Source: a virus. From it: a stretch of DNA of 22,031 nucleotides. Under the pieces are notes generated by a model. The model was not told the DNA's origin and did no database searches. It saw only the letters and a list, made by a program, of their open reading frames with translations. Shown piece by piece: positions 5,279 through 17,600 of the stretch; within the stretch, counting starts at the first letter, position 1, and each line of letters begins with the position of its first letter. A program made the position numbers and the translations under genes. The stretch spans positions 1-22,031 of the IMG/VR virus record IMGVR_UViG_3300034012_001661; one strand, written 5' to 3'.

Positions 5279-5331
5279 ACCTCACGCTCGCCATCCCTGC
5301 TTTGGCGACCCTCCACGCAAAGGAACTGACC

Positions 5332-5982
5332 ATGACGACCACCATCATCCACATCAACCTCGACGCCGTCGACCAACGCCTCCGCCACGGCGAACTGTGG
5401 ACTCACGGCTGGGGAGACTTCACGTCGCCCGAGTCGGCCACCTGCCTCCACGGTGCCATCCGCTACTGCCAGCCCATCAAGGGTGACGCCTACCTGATCG
5501 AGCAGGTGGGCAAACGTTATGGATTCGGCATCGGCGACAACGACAACGCCGACACGTGGGATTTGATCAAGGCGAAGGTGATCCCCGACATCACCGACGA
5601 CATGCTTGCCGACACGTTCGGCCCCAACTGGGAACCGATCGTCGCCTTTGTCCGTCGAGTTGCCACGCTGACATCCAACGAAGCAGGGCAGCTGTTCGCC
5701 GCGTGGGACGCCGCGAGGGTCGCCGCGAGGGTCGCCGCGTGGGTCGCCGCGTGGGACGCCGCGTGGGACGCCGCGAGGGGCGCCGCGAGGGGCGCCGCGT
5801 GGGACGCCGCGAGGGGCGCCGCGAGGGGCGCCGCGAGGGGCGCCGCGAGTGGTCTTGTCGTCCGTGATCTGATCGGCCAGCACGGCTTCAACCAAGCCCA
5901 CTACGACCTTCTCACGCAGCCGTGGGCGACCGTCATCGGCAAGGTTCATCCCGACGACGCTGATCGGTTGGTGGCGACGTGA
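5332..5982 (+). CDS. Protein with an internal A-A-[WR]-[DVG] tandem repeat
   Basis: A 216-aa protein starting at ATG 5332, 5 nt after AAAGGAAC (5319-5326); an in-frame TTG at 5302 is less likely. Residues 1-120 are a mixed alpha/beta region without a recognised domain. Residues 123-174 consist of a four-residue repeat, Ala-Ala-[Trp/Arg]-[Asp/Val/Gly], coded by 12-bp units, and should form a long helix with Trp and Arg along one face. A normal sequence follows to the end. Similar Ala/Trp/Asp repeats occur in several phage and bacterial proteins of unknown role. Unit number probably varies among relatives. It restarts translation after a 53-base gap in the overlapping operon. Confidence 0.8.
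   Translation: MTTTIIHINLDAVDQRLRHGELWTHGWGDFTSPESATCLHGAIRYCQPIKGDAYLIEQVGKRYGFGIGDNDNADTWDLIKAKVIPDITDDMLADTFGPNWEPIVAFVRRVATLTSNEAGQLFAAWDAARVAARVAAWVAAWDAAWDAARGAARGAAWDAARGAARGAARGAASGLVVRDLIGQHGFNQAHYDLLTQPWATVIGKVHPDDADRLVAT
5698..5853 (+). repeat. Thirteen 12-bp tandem repeats
   Basis: The unit is GCCGCG[T/A]GG followed by GAC, GTC or GGC. Twelve units are complete and the thirteenth (5842-5853) is degenerate. The period is a multiple of three, so copy number can change without a frameshift. The repeat keeps several frames open on both strands, producing false antisense ORFs. Confidence 0.95.
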
Positions 5983-8598: not shown

Positions 8599-9386
8599 GG
8601 ACCATCAGCTACGGCGGCGGCGTGCAGTCGACTGCCTTGCTCGTCCTTGCAGCGTTCGGCGACATCCGCCCTGTCGACGTTGCCCTGTTCGCCAACACCG
8701 GCGACGACAGCGAACACCCGGCGACGCTCGCTTACGTCCGTGACGTGGCAACACCGTGGGCGGAATCGCTTGGCATCCCCATCGTGGAGGTCCGACGCAC
8801 CTACGCCGACGGCCGCCCGTACCGCACCCTGTACGAGACGTTGACCGAGACGGCAGGCATCGGCATCCCCGTGCGCCTGTCCGGTGGCGTGCCTGGCTCG
8901 CGCACCTGCACCGCCGAATGGAAGGCGGGCGCCCTGTCTCGGTGGCGTCGCAACAACGGGGCCATCCCCAGCAAGCCGTTCGTGTCGCTCGTCGGGTTCT
9001 CCATCGACGAAGCACACCGCGCCAACAAGAGCAAGGCGTCCGCATGGGAAGTCATCGAGTACCCGCTGCTCGACCTCGGCCTGAGCCGCAACGACTGCGA
9101 GAACATCATCTGCGGCGCAGGACTGCCCGTTCCACCCAAGTCGGCGTGCTGGTTCTGCCCGTGGAAGACGATCGAAGGTTGGCGGCGCATGAAGGCCGAC
9201 GAACCTGAATTGTTCGCCAAGGCCGTCGACCTGGAAGCGCAACTCTCGGCCAAGTCGCAAGGCAAAGGCAACGGCCCCGTCTACATGACCGACGCGCTCC
9301 GTCCCCTGCCCGAGATCACCGTCGGCGAACAGCACTCGTTGCCGTTCAACAACGCCGAATGCGACGAAGGGGTGTGCTGGGTATGA
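8595..9386 (+). CDS. PAPS-reductase-like ATP pyrophosphatase
   Basis: A 263-aa protein with the N-type ATP pyrophosphatase loop S5-Y-G-G-G-V-Q-S (residues 5-12, like SGGxDS) and the PAPS reductase/DndC-like pair RTC105TAEWK. Further cysteines are C168, C173 and C185-x-x-C188. This superfamily activates a substrate by adenylation; members reduce PAPS or insert sulfur into tRNA or DNA. Here no other sulfur-assimilation gene is present, while a DNA methyltransferase and nucleases are, so DNA or RNA modification is more likely than sulfur assimilation (inference). The start is GTG 8595 in a 4-nt overlap; a longer frame to 8538 overlaps the neighbour. No DndA, B, D or E partner is seen. Confidence 0.85.
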   Translation: MRTISYGGGVQSTALLVLAAFGDIRPVDVALFANTGDDSEHPATLAYVRDVATPWAESLGIPIVEVRRTYADGRPYRTLYETLTETAGIGIPVRLSGGVPGSRTCTAEWKAGALSRWRRNNGAIPSKPFVSLVGFSIDEAHRANKSKASAWEVIEYPLLDLGLSRNDCENIICGAGLPVPPKSACWFCPWKTIEGWRRMKADEPELFAKAVDLEAQLSAKSQGKGNGPVYMTDALRPLPEITVGEQHSLPFNNAECDEGVCWV

Positions 9387-11591: not shown

Positions 11592-11731
11592 ACGTCGAAG
11601 TCGAACAGCGAGTTGTGATCCGGCTCACCGCAGCAGAGGCGTTGGCGCTGCACAGCATCCTCGATGACCTGTCCAGCGACTTCGCCATCGAGCTCGCAGC
11701 GCACCTCTTCGACGTCGACATCGTCGAGTAA
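11588..11731 (+). CDS. Very small acidic protein
   Basis: A 47-aa protein from GTG 11588 in a 4-nt overlap with the SSB-like gene, ending at TAA 11731. One strand (VEVEQRVVIRLT) is followed by an amphipathic helix. It is the last gene before a strong hairpin. Function unknown. Confidence 0.6.
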   Translation: MNVEVEQRVVIRLTAAEALALHSILDDLSSDFAIELAAHLFDVDIVE

Positions 11732-11744
11732 CACCCCGCGTTGT

Positions 11745-11775
11745 CCGGTCCGGGGGGCGGCAACCCCCGGACCGG
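11745..11775 (+). terminator. Strong G/C hairpin after the SSB-like operon
   Basis: CCGGTCCGGGGG (11745-11756) and CCCCCGGACCGG (11764-11775) form a perfect 12-bp stem around a 7-nt loop, 14 bases after a stop codon. No T-run follows (CGACACCCCCC), but T-less terminators are common in actinobacteria. It probably separates two transcripts. Confidence 0.65.
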
Positions 11776-11859
11776 CGACACCCCCCTATTCGCGTAGACG
11801 CACGAGACGAAGAGGCACAGACGATGATGACACATGGGGTCAAGTGGGGGGCGACTAGC

Positions 11860-11993
11860 GGGTTTCGGACAACCTCAGCCGACCCCGTGGTTTCGGGGAC
11901 TGGCGCCCATAGGGTTACCAGTGCAGTACCCGAAAACAGGATGACCCCGGCACCGCTTGCGACGGTCCGGGGTCTGATCGAAACCCCAGGAGG
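11860..11993 (+). promoter_or_regulatory. Candidate multi-branched structured RNA before the CoiA-like gene
   Basis: GGGTTTCG (11860-11867) pairs perfectly with CGAAACCC (11979-11986) and encloses three hairpins. These are P2 (GCC 11878-11880 and CCCCG 11883-11887 with CGGGG 11894-11898 and GGC 11902-11904), P3 (GGGTTAC 11912-11918 with GTACCC 11926-11931, one bulge) and P4 (GACCCCGG and ACCG, 11943-11955, with CGGT and CCGGGGTC, 11963-11974). The 3' strand of the closing stem lies 1 base before AGGAGG (11988-11993). An alternative stem, GGGGT (11969-11973) with ACCCC (11983-11987), would break both P4 and the closing stem. This layout suggests a translational switch. A 74-aa frame from ATG 11824 crosses it, but its third codon positions are atypically A/T-rich. 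No known riboswitch is recognised. Confidence 0.45.
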
Positions 11994-12000
11994 TTCCGAT

Positions 12001-12048
12001 ATGACAAGTGTACCAATGGCTGTCAAGACCTGTGAGGTGGAAGCCTGA
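12001..12048 (+). CDS. Possible 15-residue leader peptide
   Basis: ATG 12001 follows AGGAGG (11988-11993) by 7 nt and opens a 15-codon frame, MTSVPMAVKTCEVEA, whose TGA overlaps the next ATG by one base. The best ribosome binding site of the region thus serves this tiny frame and couples it to the CoiA-like gene. It may instead be the end of a 74-aa ORF from 11824. Confidence 0.4.
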   Translation: MTSVPMAVKTCEVEA

Positions 12049-12989
12049 TGGCATTCATCGCACTCGTAGGCACCAAGCCGATGAAGGCCACCAAGGGCCA
12101 GACCGGCACCTGTCTAGATCCTGCCTGCCGCGGCGAGATGATCGCCAAGATCGGCTCAGGACTCATCAAGCCCCACTGGGCGCACCGCCACGCCGGCGAC
12201 TGTGCGCTCGAGGGTAACGAGGAGTCTGGTTGGCACCTTACGTGGCGCACCCTGTTCGAGTTGAACGGTTGCGGCAGTGAGGTTGTCTACGCCGACGGCA
12301 AGCACCGCGCCGACGCTGTCACCCCCGACGGGCGCGTCGTTGAGTTCCAGACCACATGGCTGCCGTGGCAGTCCATCCGCTCACGCGAAGCCACCTACCA
12401 GAACATGGCGTGGATGTACCGCGTGACCGACTCGCAGGCCGACCTCGACCTCGGCGACACTGCGCTCGACGGGCTCGCCGAGTTCCACTGGTACACGCCC
12501 CGCCGGTCGATCCTCGCCCACGAACGGCCCGTCTACTGGCACCGCTCCGACGATGCGATCTGGTCGATCAAGGCCATCTACCGCACGGCCGACACAACCG
12601 ACGACGGCAACGTCGTATGGAAGGGCGTCGCCCAGCTCGTCGGCACGGACTGGGGCGACTTCGCCGAGCGCATCAGCAACGGCGAGCAGTTCGCCGACGC
12701 GCCCACGTTCTACGGATTCGAAGCCGTGGAGGCACGCCGCGCCTACGCCGCCGCCCGCCAACTCGAGCAAACGGACGAAGCATGGATCGACATGGACGGC
12801 TACGACTGCCAACTGTCGACCCCGTCACGCGGTCACCTCACGTTGGTGCGCCCCGGCATCGTCTACGACCCCGACAAGCTCGTCCACCTCGAGCGGTTCA
12901 AGGCCACCTGCCCCGCCTGCCAGGCGTGCCGCAAGCCGATGGTCTGCGGGCAGCGCAAGCTCCACTACACCTGCGGCGGTGTCGCATGA
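12048..12989 (+). CDS. CoiA-like PD-(D/E)XK nuclease with zinc sites
   Basis: A 313-aa protein from ATG 12048. Residues 18-57 look like the CoiA zinc finger (C22, C27, H43-W-A-H46, C52), followed by H63. The nuclease core is H86-R-A-D89-A, then V98-E99-F-Q101, and R111/R113. This order is that of CoiA-like nucleases. A second Cys cluster ends the protein (C288, C291, C294, C300, C309). CoiA acts in processing recombination intermediates during natural transformation in firmicutes; phage relatives are of unknown role. Position just before the primase-helicase (4-nt overlap) suggests replication or recombination. Expression probably depends on the structured leader upstream. Confidence 0.82.
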   Translation: MAFIALVGTKPMKATKGQTGTCLDPACRGEMIAKIGSGLIKPHWAHRHAGDCALEGNEESGWHLTWRTLFELNGCGSEVVYADGKHRADAVTPDGRVVEFQTTWLPWQSIRSREATYQNMAWMYRVTDSQADLDLGDTALDGLAEFHWYTPRRSILAHERPVYWHRSDDAIWSIKAIYRTADTTDDGNVVWKGVAQLVGTDWGDFAERISNGEQFADAPTFYGFEAVEARRAYAAARQLEQTDEAWIDMDGYDCQLSTPSRGHLTLVRPGIVYDPDKLVHLERFKATCPACQACRKPMVCGQRKLHYTCGGVA

Positions 12990-15769
12990 CCCCGACCAAG
13001 CTCACGCCCCGCGAGTTCATCTCCACCATCTACCGCGACGTCGACGGCGGTTGGCTCACCCTGTTCAGTCGCAACCCATCCACGGGCGAGCAGAGCACCG
13101 ACTGGTTCGCCACCGACCAGACGGCCGAGATGGTTGACCGCGCGATGGAGCTCTCCCTCGAGCGCGACGTGTGGTTCGGTGTCGCTACCCGCACCGACAG
13201 GCTGCATGACGGCCGTCGTGGTGGGGCGGCAGACTGCGCCCACATCACCGCGCTATGGGTTGACATTGATGTCGCTGGCCCCAACCACAAAGGCGACGTC
13301 GACTCCTACCCGGACGCCGACGCAGCGCGACGGCTGATCAAGGAGTTCCCGGTGCCGGTCACCACCGTCGTCAAGACGGGCGGCGGATACCACGGGTACT
13401 GGCACCTTGACGAGCCGATCGAACGCGAGGACGCCCTAAAGCTCCTCACCCGTTGGGGCGCACACTGGTCCTGCTATGCCACGGCCGCTGGGTACAAGGT
13501 CGACAACGTGTTCGACCTGCCTCGCGTGCTGCGCGTCCCTGGCACGTTCAACCGCAAGAACGGCGGCGAGGTGCTTGTCGAGGTGCTGTTCCACGACGCC
13601 ACGCGCGTCTATGGCTACAGCCACATCGTCGACCACACCGACGAGCCACCCGACGACCCGAAGCACGCACAGCGACACGTCCCCTACACCGGCGTCGAAC
13701 GCCCGGGCGACGACTTCAACGCCCGCAAGACGGGATCAGACGTGCTCGCCATGGCGGGCTGGACCCTCGGCAAGTCCAAGCGCAACGGCGAACAGGCGTG
13801 GATGCACCCGTGGGGGCCGTCGACTGAAGAGTCGGCGACGGTGTACCCCGACAACCACATCACCATCTGGTCAGACAACGTCCCCAAGCACTATCCGACG
13901 ATCACCGTCCGCACCCCGTACGACCCGTATGGGCTGTACGCCCGCATCTTTCACGGCGGCGACTTCCACGAGGCCACCATTGAGCTCGCGAAGATGGGCT
14001 ACGGCGCCCCCTCGATCACGGCGCTGCTCGGTATCGACGACATCCCCAGCTACAGCGACACCCCACCGTCGGACGACCAGATCGCCGACATGGAGGCCGC
14101 ACGCAGCAAGTACCAACTGTTCGTCGGCGGGCAACGCCACCTCGACGACATCGTCAACGAGCTGAGCACGGCCCTCCTCGCGATCAACGACCCGCCCCAC
14201 CTGTTCAAGCATGGTGACGTCGTCTCGCAGTTCACCCGCGGCGAGCTCGAGGCCGTTGACAGGGTGCGGATGGTGAACGTCATCGAGTCTCACATGCGGC
14301 CCGTCATCATGAAGAAAGACGGCGTGGCGCCGGCACGGGTCGAGCAGTCGGCCATCGACCTCGCGCTACTCCGACTCGTTGACCGCCTACCAGAGGTCGA
14401 GGGCGTCGTCAGGTCGCCGTTCCTGCGTGCCGACGGCACCGTCTGTGCTGATGTCGGCTACGACGTGCGTAGCGGCAACTACCTCGCGTCCACTATCCAC
14501 ACCAACGTCCCCGACGCACCCACCAGGGCCGACGTGGACTCGGCAGTCGCACGGATCGACGACTTGATCCACGACTTCCCGCTCAAGAGCGACGCAGACC
14601 GGGCGCACGTCTTCGCCCTCCTCCTCACACCCCTGGTGCGCCACCTCGTGCCCCTGACGCCGCTGTTCATCATGGACGGCAACGGCCCAGGCGTCGGCAA
14701 GAACCTCCTTGCCGAGTCATGCATGTACGTTGCCACCGGTGACTGGGTGCAGACCGACCCCCTGCCGACCGACGCCGAGGAGCAGCGCAAGCAGATCACT
14801 GCGCTGATGTCCACCGGCCGCAGTGTGGCGCTGTTCGACGAAGCCCACATCATCACCGGGACGTCGTTGGCGCGGTTGATCACGTCGACCACGTGGGGCG
14901 ACCGTCTACTCGGCTACAGCAAGCAGGTCAGCTACCCAAACCGCATCACCGTCGTCGCCCTCGGCAACAACGTCGAGATCCAAGGCGACATGCCGAGACG
15001 GTCGATCATCGTCCGGCTCGAGTCGCAACTGGCGAGGCCGTATGACCGCCAGGACTTCCGCCACGACAACCTGCGCGACTGGGTGGAACAGAACCGCCCC
15101 GAGCTCGTCGGAGCGTTGTTGACGATGCTGGTGTCATGGCACCAAGCAGGACGACCCAAGAGCGCCAAGCGACTCGGCTCGTTCGACGCATGGGCCGAGA
15201 TCGTCGGCGGTGCGCTCGACCACGCCGGCGTCAAGGGGTTCATGTCGAACCTCGGCGAGATGCGCGCCCGTGGCGCCGGCGACGAGCAGGACATGCACGC
15301 CCACCTGTGGGAGCTGCGAGGCCACTTCATCGACGCCGGGTTCACCGCCAAGCAAGTCGGGCGGATGATCGAAGACGACCGGCTCGACTCGTGGCCGCCC
15401 CGCATGGGCAAGGACAAGAACTACGCGCAGTCCCTCGGACACGTCTACCGGCACTACTCGGACCGCTGGATGGGCGACATTCGCATCAGGCAGGACGGCC
15501 TATCGAATGGCGCCCGCCGATGGGTGCTCGAGCTGCTACCTGTGGATAAACCCCCCGAATCAGTAGGACTTGTAGGACTTGTAGGACTTGCTCCCGCTAC
15601 ATACGAGAAAAATCAGGTCATAGAGGGGGCGCCGGCGGTAGTCCTCGACGCTCCGGAAGGCCCGGACAAAGTCCTACAAGTCCTACAAGTCCTACAGGAC
15701 GACCCCGAAGTCGAAGTCGACGAATGGGGCGACCCGATCCCCACCCGCACGCCCCAAGCATGGGACTGA
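12986..15769 (+). CDS. Primase-polymerase / helicase fusion replication protein
   Basis: A 927-aa protein from ATG 12986 in a 4-nt overlap (the frame is open from 12356 but over the CoiA-like gene). The N-terminal domain is an archaeo-eukaryotic-type primase: L90-W-V-D93-I-D95 metal site, K130-T-G-G-G-Y-H136 and R183-V-P-G-T-F-N. A helicase-type ATPase follows: Walker A G567-P-G-V-G-K572-N and Walker B F617-D618-E619-A-H, then a polar strand (ALGNN) and an arginine pair (MPRRS). It would unwind the origin and prime synthesis, and no phage polymerase gene is visible, so the host's is probably used. The last 75 residues are repetitive (VGLVGLVGL and VLQVLQVLQ), coded by a 9-bp repeat array that may be the origin. 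Confidence 0.92.
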   Translation: MTPTKLTPREFISTIYRDVDGGWLTLFSRNPSTGEQSTDWFATDQTAEMVDRAMELSLERDVWFGVATRTDRLHDGRRGGAADCAHITALWVDIDVAGPNHKGDVDSYPDADAARRLIKEFPVPVTTVVKTGGGYHGYWHLDEPIEREDALKLLTRWGAHWSCYATAAGYKVDNVFDLPRVLRVPGTFNRKNGGEVLVEVLFHDATRVYGYSHIVDHTDEPPDDPKHAQRHVPYTGVERPGDDFNARKTGSDVLAMAGWTLGKSKRNGEQAWMHPWGPSTEESATVYPDNHITIWSDNVPKHYPTITVRTPYDPYGLYARIFHGGDFHEATIELAKMGYGAPSITALLGIDDIPSYSDTPPSDDQIADMEAARSKYQLFVGGQRHLDDIVNELSTALLAINDPPHLFKHGDVVSQFTRGELEAVDRVRMVNVIESHMRPVIMKKDGVAPARVEQSAIDLALLRLVDRLPEVEGVVRSPFLRADGTVCADVGYDVRSGNYLASTIHTNVPDAPTRADVDSAVARIDDLIHDFPLKSDADRAHVFALLLTPLVRHLVPLTPLFIMDGNGPGVGKNLLAESCMYVATGDWVQTDPLPTDAEEQRKQITALMSTGRSVALFDEAHIITGTSLARLITSTTWGDRLLGYSKQVSYPNRITVVALGNNVEIQGDMPRRSIIVRLESQLARPYDRQDFRHDNLRDWVEQNRPELVGALLTMLVSWHQAGRPKSAKRLGSFDAWAEIVGGALDHAGVKGFMSNLGEMRARGAGDEQDMHAHLWELRGHFIDAGFTAKQVGRMIEDDRLDSWPPRMGKDKNYAQSLGHVYRHYSDRWMGDIRIRQDGLSNGARRWVLELLPVDKPPESVGLVGLVGLAPATYEKNQVIEGAPAVVLDAPEGPDKVLQVLQVLQDDPEVEVDEWGDPIPTRTPQAWD
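15563..15589 (+). repeat. Three 9-bp direct repeats, left arm
   Basis: GTAGGACTT in tandem three times with no spacer; coded as VGLVGLVGL. Exactly inverted at 15669-15695. Confidence 0.97.
15669..15695 (-). repeat. Three 9-bp repeats, inverted right arm
   Basis: AAGTCCTAC three times in tandem, the exact reverse complement of 15563-15589; coded as KVLQVLQVLQ. The perfect identity after different coding use argues for a DNA-level role or recent inversion-duplication. Confidence 0.97.
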
Positions 15770-16315: not shown

Positions 16316-16801
16316 ATGACCAGAATCGACACCCAGCTCGACGCCGCCGTCGGACTACTCCAGAACTACGCCCGCACCCTCCCCATCGCCCTCGCCCACG
16401 TCGACCGCGAGCTCCACATCATCGACGGCTGGCCGGCATCCACGTTCAGCGACGGCATGCCACGAGGTGAATCGACCCTCACCGCCGTGGAACGGGCCGC
16501 AGAGGCCCGCGTGCGCCTCTCAAACGTGCGCAGCACCCTGTTGGACGACAGAGATGCCATCCTGTCCCTCATCGCCTCAGCGCTCCACGTGTGCCGTGAT
16601 GCTGCCGGCATGCGTGCGCCCGTCATCGTGGCACGCTGCAACGACAGCCAGGTCGGCCGTGAAGGGCTGATCGAGTGGGGCAACACCACGTGCGTGGAGA
16701 TCCCCACCAAGGCAGGGCTCTGCTCGGCGTGCTACCAGCGCGAACGACGCTGGCGCCTTGCCAACGCGCTCGCACCTCGAGAGATCGAGCCGGCAGCGTG
16801 A
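16316..16801 (+). CDS. Small protein with zinc-binding Cys pairs
   Basis: A 161-aa protein starting at ATG 16316, after AGGAGA (16300-16305). Residues 1-100 are helical with conserved-looking acid and base patches. C108, C126 and C136-x-x-C139 in the last part, followed by YQRERRWR, probably bind a zinc ion. I know proteins of this layout from actinophage genomes, between replication and packaging genes, but they have no assigned function. Confidence 0.72.
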   Translation: MTRIDTQLDAAVGLLQNYARTLPIALAHVDRELHIIDGWPASTFSDGMPRGESTLTAVERAAEARVRLSNVRSTLLDDRDAILSLIASALHVCRDAAGMRAPVIVARCNDSQVGREGLIEWGNTTCVEIPTKAGLCSACYQRERRWRLANALAPREIEPAA

Positions 16802-17052
16802 GAGGGCAACCGAAGACGTTGGCGCAGATTATGTCTGAGAGCGCCTCAATGACGATCAACCAGTACCGCAAGATCTACCCACACGACTGCATCTTCGACG
16901 CTTGGTTCACTACCTCAACGACACGACGTGGCCCGTACTGCGTCACCTGCCTCGCCCAAGGACCCGACTATCACGAAACGACCTACCGTGTGCTGCGTGA
17001 TGTCGACCTCGTCGAATGGGACGCTACACCACCACCTGAGCCGGCGGCGTGA
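16798..17052 (+). CDS. Small protein with a Cys pair
   Basis: An 84-aa protein from GTG 16798 in a 4-nt overlap with the previous stop; ATG 16831 is the alternative start but lacks a ribosome binding site. C31 and C48-x-x-C51 hint at a metal site, and the N-terminal helix (QIMSESASMTINQYRKIY) looks like half of a DNA-binding domain. The function is unknown. Confidence 0.65.
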   Translation: MRGQPKTLAQIMSESASMTINQYRKIYPHDCIFDAWFTTSTTRRGPYCVTCLAQGPDYHETTYRVLRDVDLVEWDATPPPEPAA

Positions 17053-17076
17053 AACCATGCGCCTACCTGGTACGAG

Positions 17077-17106
17077 TTGACAAGTGATACCAACAGTGTG
17101 TATCAT
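17077..17106 (+). promoter_or_regulatory. Sigma-70-type promoter of the packaging-side HNH gene
   Basis: A perfect TTGACA (17077-17082) and TATCAT (17101-17106) are 18 bp apart. CCAACAG (17090-17096) and CTGTTGG (17109-17115) are inverted repeats on either side of the -10, a possible operator. This is the best promoter in the window and could drive the packaging genes. Confidence 0.75.
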
Positions 17107-17113
17107 CCCTGTT

Positions 17114-17133
17114 GGCTCCCACCTGTGGGGGCC
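17114..17133 (+). promoter_or_regulatory. Leader hairpin of the second HNH gene
   Basis: GGCTCCCAC (17114-17122) pairs with GTGGGGGCC (17125-17133) with one G-T pair. It lies just past the predicted transcription start. TCCCACCTGT at 17117-17126 matches the leader of the first HNH gene. Confidence 0.5.
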
Positions 17134-17154
17134 TTATGCGTGTAGCAGGTAGCG

Positions 17155-17466
17155 ATGTCAGGTGAGCGCAAGCCCTGGCACAACGGCCTGTACCGCAAGC
17201 TCGCCCCGCTCGTCGTGGCTCGAGCCGACGCCGACCCTTCGACCCGCTGCGGTCAGCTACCCGACGGCTCACTCCACCCTGACGGTTGTGGACTGACGAA
17301 GCGGCAGCACGGTCGGCAATGGCAGGCCGGCCATGTCGTGCGCGGCAAGATCGTCACGACGCCGTTCGACCTCATGCCTCACTGTGCTCGGTGTAACGCC
17401 AGCTCAGGGGCGCGTGACGGCAATCGAATGCGTCGGCGCATCACGAGCCGTGACTGGTACGCCTAG
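17155..17466 (+). CDS. HNH endonuclease next to the terminase
   Basis: A 103-aa HNH nuclease from ATG 17155. The core is W56-Q-A-G-H60-V-V, then H76, and C77-x-x-C80-N81 (PHCARCNASSG). Upstream cysteines C32 and C45 may complete a zinc site with C77/C80. The size and place, just before TerS and TerL, match HNH proteins that assist cos cleavage and packaging in siphoviruses such as HK97. This gives it a likely packaging role, and it could compensate for the weakened nuclease of the adjacent TerL. It has its own promoter and a leader hairpin. Confidence 0.9.
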   Translation: MSGERKPWHNGLYRKLAPLVVARADADPSTRCGQLPDGSLHPDGCGLTKRQHGRQWQAGHVVRGKIVTTPFDLMPHCARCNASSGARDGNRMRRRITSRDWYA

Positions 17467-17600
17467 CTGACCCCAGGGGTACCACCACGGAGCGTGGCGG
17501 GCTTCCGGACCCCGTCTCCCGGGGCGGTTCTCTCTCTCCCACCATCGTCGCAGGTCAGAGGCACTTTCCGAGGGCATACCCCAGGGGGTAGGTGTAGCTG
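17467..17600. other. Structured G/C-rich gap before TerS; possible cos region
   Basis: ACCCCAGGGGT (17470-17480) and TACCCC-AG-GGGGTA (17577-17590) are near-identical palindromes at either end of the gap. Between them are CCACGgagCGTGG (17485-17497) and CCCC/GGGG arms around 17513-17525, followed by a TTCTCTCTCTCCC run (17528-17540). The position beside the terminase genes fits cos, or a terminator. Neither is proven. Confidence 0.35.

Follow-up and report, generated by a model that had tools for sequence, protein, structure and literature searches.

The window, a virus record of 22,031 bases analysed at its full length, has a GC content of 66% and the look of an actinophage, and most matches of its large terminase come from phages of Gordonia, Arthrobacter and Mycobacterium. 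A 47-residue gene ends at 11731, and the 269 bases that separate it from a 15-codon frame beginning at 12001 show no coding signal. The initial annotation had seen no convincing gene in this interval, which we confirm for its 74-aa reading frame: it scores −0.25 bits per codon at a GC3 of 0.61, compared with +0.48 and 0.875 for the CoiA-like gene downstream, and a search among phages returned no significant homologue. The interval before 12001 is non-coding. The features considered here are the following:

1734–1793, + strand: probable second copy of the conserved element (refined covariance model R2, 19.7 bits, E 0.0067 for the window alone), ending at ATG 1791
1791–2342, + strand: HNH_3 endonuclease gene (HNH_3 E 3e-15 for 1791–2339)
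11745–11775, + strand: terminator-like hairpin with a perfect 12-bp stem, 14 nt past the end of the upstream gene
11860–11867 with 11979–11986, + strand: 8-bp closing stem, a genuine inverted repeat that was not recovered in relatives
11943–11974, + strand: H3, a GC-rich hairpin GACCCCGG-C-ACCG/CGGU-CCGGGGUC with a bulged C and a 7-nt loop, predicted pairing probability ~1.0 in every context
11977–12000, + strand: predicted Shine-Dalgarno (SD) hairpin AUCG-A-AACC (CCAGGA) GGUU-C-CGAU, whose loop and inner stem contain the Shine-Dalgarno sequence and which ends at the start codon
11988–11993, + strand: Shine-Dalgarno sequence AGGAGG
12001–12048, + strand: 15-codon frame (MTSVPMAVKTCEVEA, then stop) without codon bias of its own, its stop overlapping the start codon of the CoiA-like gene
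12048–12989, + strand: CoiA-like nuclease gene with a zinc-binding N-terminus and a PD-(D/E)XK-type D..ExQ motif

The CoiA-like protein matches Pfam CoiA_N at E 5e-4, below the curated cut-off, and its plasmid relatives are annotated as CoiA. Residues C22, C27, H43, H46, C52, D89, E99 and Q101 are invariant in our alignment A1, and a PD-EXQ assignment of the CoiA family has been published (PMC1189080). Three unrelated viral contigs have a primase/helicase gene directly preceded by a CoiA-like gene (window, 12048–15769; L024, 425–3717; L018, 3896–6788), and the two form a recurrent replication-linked pair. At a further viral locus, L005, the CoiA-like gene adjoins a P-loop ATPase-like frame.

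Because the terminator-like hairpin at 11745–11775 follows the upstream gene, the leader of the CoiA-like gene is probably a transcription unit of its own. The hairpin resembles actinobacterial terminators, and look-alikes in stretches of Streptomyces phages and plasmids for which no gene is listed reach only E 0.3–4. When the leader DNA was compared with phages and plasmids, only weak matches were obtained, mainly to this hairpin, and a search of 11600–12100 for sigma-70-type promoters, the one type covered, found none. A replication origin at the leader was considered and rejected, as the GC skew makes no turn at 11.9 kb. The skew switches sign near 17 kb (16500–17500), at the border between early genes and terminase-structural genes.

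The initial annotation had read 11860–11993 as a multi-branched, riboswitch-like RNA, in which an 8-bp stem encloses three hairpins and is opposed by a competing stem formed by 11969–11973 and 11983–11987. Several of its landmarks are present: the inverted repeat is perfect and stops one base short of AGGAGG, the three enclosed hairpins are seen in the predicted fold, and the frame opened by ATG 12001 is coupled to the CoiA-like gene through a stop codon that overlaps ATG 12048. Terminal long-range stems of at least equal length arise in 1.3% of shuffles. The + strand folds moderately better than its dinucleotide shuffles (z −1.4 to −2.4; rank 14 among 327 window positions), and the − strand folds better still (z −3.3). 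The predicted ensemble nevertheless assigns the competing stem a pairing probability of 0.00, and firm pairing of the closing stem (probability 1.0) requires an RNA cut at 11987. When downstream bases are present, its probability in the main tests is 0.01–0.37 and shifts with the 5′ end, the 3′ end and the dangle setting. In RNAs that reach 12000 or further, the SD hairpin (11977–11985 with 11992–12000) usually takes its place. The two are mutually exclusive in the ensemble, as a switch would have it, and in the folding model it is the SD hairpin that is the real competitor of the closing stem.

A search with the closing stem and the SD sequence as a pattern gave two matches, nearly identical to each other and both located in a gene immediately ahead of terL, hence chance matches. 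The covariance-model search of Rfam 15 gave no match at gathering score, in agreement with the earlier statement that no known riboswitch class is recognisable; the best sub-threshold match reaches 21 bits, compared with 58 needed, and lies outside the element, and the matches below gathering score are all weak and typical of chance. In relatives, the similarity begins only at ~11943, and neither the 5′ half nor the closing stem is recovered. With its perfect stem adjoining the SD sequence set against the loss of that stem in longer transcripts, a 5′ half not recovered in relatives, a stated competitor of zero probability and the lack of an Rfam match, we regard the multi-branched model as highly improbable. 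What survives of the earlier proposal is that an RNA with structure, probably cis-acting, directly precedes a consensus Shine-Dalgarno sequence, as homologues and compensatory changes indicate, with comparative support confined to 11943–12003. The HNH endonuclease genes neighbouring these homologues point to control of a selfish nuclease gene rather than to ligand sensing.

By sequence comparison, the conserved object is 11943–12003, comprising H3, the weaker SD hairpin and the start codon. Two or three unpaired bases separate the hairpins, and 13 nt separate H3 from the SD sequence. The SD hairpin has a predicted stability of −7.3 kcal/mol, which is equalled in 6.8% of shuffles, and the SD sequence is ~0.65 accessible in the predicted ensemble and less paired than in 95.5% of shuffles. 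The two-hairpin leader is best read as a distinct RNA family absent from Rfam.

Homologues were retrieved with a pattern in which GACCCCGG, CCGGGGTC and AGGAGG were fixed and nothing else, yielding 44 loci. Among these, R1, a covariance model with the window sequence as its sole input, singled out L132, L136, L158, L125 and L146 (E 6.5e-9 to 9e-5) as well as L147 (E 0.011). The similarity found by blastn, 86% over 58 nt with 22 positions fixed by the pattern, spans H3, the linker, the SD sequence and the bases up to the start codon. In some members, the aligned stretch just 5′ of the element also folds as a hairpin whose loop is AUA, but this is no more than suggestive. All six viral-contig copies end at the start codon of an HNH endonuclease gene, with products of 297–299 aa, 290 aa (PF01844) and 300 aa (PF13392). 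The remaining pattern loci, read by eye without a Pfam scan, precede unrelated genes or no clear gene.

We further ran R2, free of the pattern, on two complete cultured phage genomes (79 kb), which were chosen through protein similarity for their HNH genes; the RNA search itself was blind to genes. The best matches score 23.3 and 21.4 bits, and the next 12.6. In Arthrobacter phage 1191A, the match (38129–38190) meets the start of an HNH coding sequence at 38189, beside the gene of the terminase small subunit. In Microbacterium phage Footloose (MZ150789.1), it lies at 9293–9353 before the HNH gene gp16, between the tail assembly chaperone and tape measure genes. The annotated start of gp16 is 9392; an in-frame GTG at 9350 fits the element, adds 14 codons and is probably the actual start.

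Outside the window, all eight homologues directly precede HNH genes, as established by Pfam for representatives. L125, L132, L136 and L158 belong to one phage group, leaving about six independent lineages in all, and among the HNH genes of the reference phages examined, those with the element are a minority. R2 finds one copy per reference genome and, in the window, one strong and one weak copy. A search with R3 over 450 kb gave no further members, and the family is certainly under-sampled in viral contigs. Among viral and genome contigs, homologues of the CoiA-like protein (alignment A1) were found at 72 distant loci, none of which carries the leader by R1; at L005, the best viral locus, the CoiA start abuts the preceding gene. 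Searches of viral contigs found no close relatives of the CoiA-like protein, the primase or the exonuclease, and the records of portal and terminase relatives are without leader, CoiA and primase. Short matches in G001 were discarded; the one inspected falls within a large ORF.

The prominence of H3 raises the question of transcription attenuation: H3 would be a terminator-like GC hairpin (I-shaped, without U-tract) that lowers read-through into the nuclease gene, the SD hairpin being incidental. H3 is very stable, is the best-conserved part of the element and resembles actinobacterial terminator hairpins; GC hairpins precede SD sequences in other phages too, and mycobacterial intrinsic terminators frequently lack a U-tract (PMC12288462). 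The homology, however, extends over the linker and the SD stretch, where two-sided changes occur as well, and the short distance from H3 to the SD sequence leaves no room for a promoter, so that a full terminator would silence the gene. On balance, we consider attenuation unlikely.

Base pairing was assessed in an alignment of eight sequences (A6), where two-sided changes are found in 12 of 20 pairs, compared with 5.4 ± 1.6 after shuffling, a control that is inflated by the relatedness of the sequences. The covariation score is 0.286 (shuffled, 0.144), and 80.5% of paired cells can pair (shuffled, 71.6%). For each of these three measures, the observed value was reached in 0 of 500 shuffles, and sliding the structure lowers all of them. 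In H3, 92.6% of the cells are paired and 6 of 12 pairs change on both sides; the inner stem, which the pattern leaves free, shows replacements of C-G by U-A and of A-U by G-C, among others. In the SD hairpin, 62.5% of the cells of the eight rows pair, a value due in part to a shift of L146 and 1191A by one base in the alignment, and 6 of 8 pairs change on both sides. A count by hand in four members places the A-C mismatch at a fixed position in three of them, with two-sided changes in the flanking pairs. When arms were exchanged between members, chimeric H3 folded worse (5 of 5040 permutations were as good), whereas the result for the SD hairpin was not significant (555 of 5040) and swaps of the 3′ part did not reliably weaken it. 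For this reason, we regard H3 as well supported and the SD hairpin, less secure than H3, as probable.

Two-sided changes would also be expected from palindromic DNA, and both strands fold well, the − strand better. The palindromes might therefore be sites where the encoded nuclease or a phage regulator binds or cuts the DNA, with no role as RNA structure. Four copies of GKTTTCG lie nearby; we rejected them as an operator cluster, since a 7-mer cluster of some kind appears in 12.6% of leader shuffles and is thus within chance. Against a DNA element further stand the fixed position relative to the SD sequence and the start codon in all members and the free variation of the H3 sequence with pairing and bulge kept, more readily expected of a structure than of a recognition sequence. 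We judge a DNA element to be distinctly unlikely.

The gene context of the element suggests mobility. In L158, a leader with its HNH gene (1172–2190) is flanked by a small HNH gene on one side and the gene preceding terL on the other, a place that corresponds in the window to no more than 17467–17600. This presence in one genome, opposite a short gap in the other, suggests that leader and HNH gene travel together as a mobile insertion. The probable second copy in the window precedes an HNH_3 gene whose product is similar to that of the HNH gene behind the L147 element (41% over 95 aa). The main copy fronts the 15-codon frame and the CoiA-like gene, not an HNH gene. Like this frame, HNH N-termini begin M..TC.., and by pure guess the frame may be all that is left of an HNH gene.

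We favour, with somewhat more confidence than doubt, the reading of 11943–12003 as a translation-initiation leader with two hairpins, conserved before phage endonuclease genes and limiting or timing their translation. Its observed basis is the anatomy, the conservation and the gene association, from which we infer lowered or delayed translation. Transcripts would run in from upstream genes with the two hairpins holding the ribosome-binding site partly closed, the very stable H3 propping the weak SD hairpin just downstream, and little nuclease would be made, or its synthesis would be confined to a chosen time. Opening of the weak hairpin could come about (i) in a late transcript, (ii) through a factor or (iii) through melting by the ribosome. 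Such a leader would limit the damage from a mobile nuclease inserted among essential genes; in the window, it would drive the 15-codon frame, translationally coupled to the CoiA-like nuclease. Counting against this leader are the weakness of the SD hairpin, the accessibility of the SD sequence and an arm exchange that does not single out this hairpin. The − strand, moreover, folds at least as well, the main window copy precedes a 15-codon frame and a CoiA-like gene, and the element is missing from most HNH genes of the examined reference phages and spans about six lineages. In a bolder version, possible but doubtful in our estimate, the element would be an actinophage RNA family not described before, which would travel as one unit with free-standing HNH genes and keep them silent up to the moment when a signal from phage or host opened the SD hairpin; in the window, it would have been co-opted by the replication-linked nuclease gene of the CoiA-like kind beside the primase.

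The closest precedents are found in T4-like phages. The ribosome-binding sites of T4 I-TevI, I-TevII, I-TevIII and segB and of Aeh1 mobE are hidden by hairpins, an arrangement that silences these homing endonucleases until late (PMC2988022). The actinophage leader likewise has a predicted hairpin over a consensus SD sequence before the start codon of an inserted phage endonuclease gene. It differs in having two hairpins in series that covary across phages of different Actinobacteria, and here repression would be deduced by analogy. A late promoter lets late transcripts of the T4 type escape the hairpin. In the window, the search of 11600–12100, which covered promoters of the sigma-70 type, found none. 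The gene association of the T4 type fits the eight outside homologues and the copy at 1734 (HNH/HNH_3); the main copy instead fronts the CoiA-like gene. As to sequestration, the predicted hairpin contains the SD sequence but is weak and leaves it largely accessible (~0.65).

In seg43(25) of Aeromonas phage 25, a very stable hairpin lies just upstream of the ribosome-binding site without hiding it (PMC2988022). The leader shares the stable hairpin immediately upstream of the ribosome-binding site of an endonuclease gene and differs by its second hairpin, which includes the SD sequence. At L163 (734–816), in Mycolicibacterium phage phi1_186019, an 81-nt stretch forms a hairpin of −44 kcal/mol immediately before the ribosome-binding site of an HNH gene; it is seg43(25)-like and has no SD hairpin.

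Cluster K mycobacteriophages and Cluster EF Microbacterium phages carry the SAS/ESAS sequences; SAS is a 13-bp GGGATAGGAGCCC-like sequence present in 11–19 copies per genome before many gene types (PMC3203893, PMC7302621). Common to both is a conserved sequence at the ribosome-binding site of actinophage genes with an inverted repeat just upstream, here the imperfect repeat of H3, 13 nt before the SD sequence. The present element differs by its 1–2 copies, its tie to nuclease genes and a structure conserved more than its sequence; it is not a 13-bp multi-copy sequence, and it reads CCCCAGGAGGTTCC at the SD sequence. L138, L126 and L145 each contain two copies per contig of a GACCCCGG/CCGGGGTC hairpin before AGGAGG and the start of a non-HNH gene, and these may be start-associated repeats of the SAS/ESAS kind. 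With Rfam riboswitch and leader families the element has the 5′ leader position in common, and it matches no such family at gathering score. A literature search, with most subscription journals outside its coverage, found no report of a leader of this kind before HNH genes of actinophages.

Genes of the HNH type rank with the commonest in actinophages, and to our knowledge only T4-like phages have shown how their expression is restrained. A compact RNA signature at HNH start codons that lends itself to searches would make such restraint testable in the laboratory phages 1191A and Footloose, would aid the correction of start-codon annotations, as for Footloose gp16, and would suggest how the start-associated repeats of other actinophages, so far unexplained, might be understood in structural terms.

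Other repeats in the window lie within coding sequence. At the 3′ end of the primase/helicase gene, 15563–15590 and 15669–15696 contain three 9-nt repeats each in opposite orientation (GTAGGACTT and AAGTCCTAC), encode VGLVGLVGL and VLQVLQVLQ and form a long hairpin. In the gene at 5302–5982, ~13 copies of a 12-bp repeat (5697–5849) encode a repeat of the AAxxAA type.
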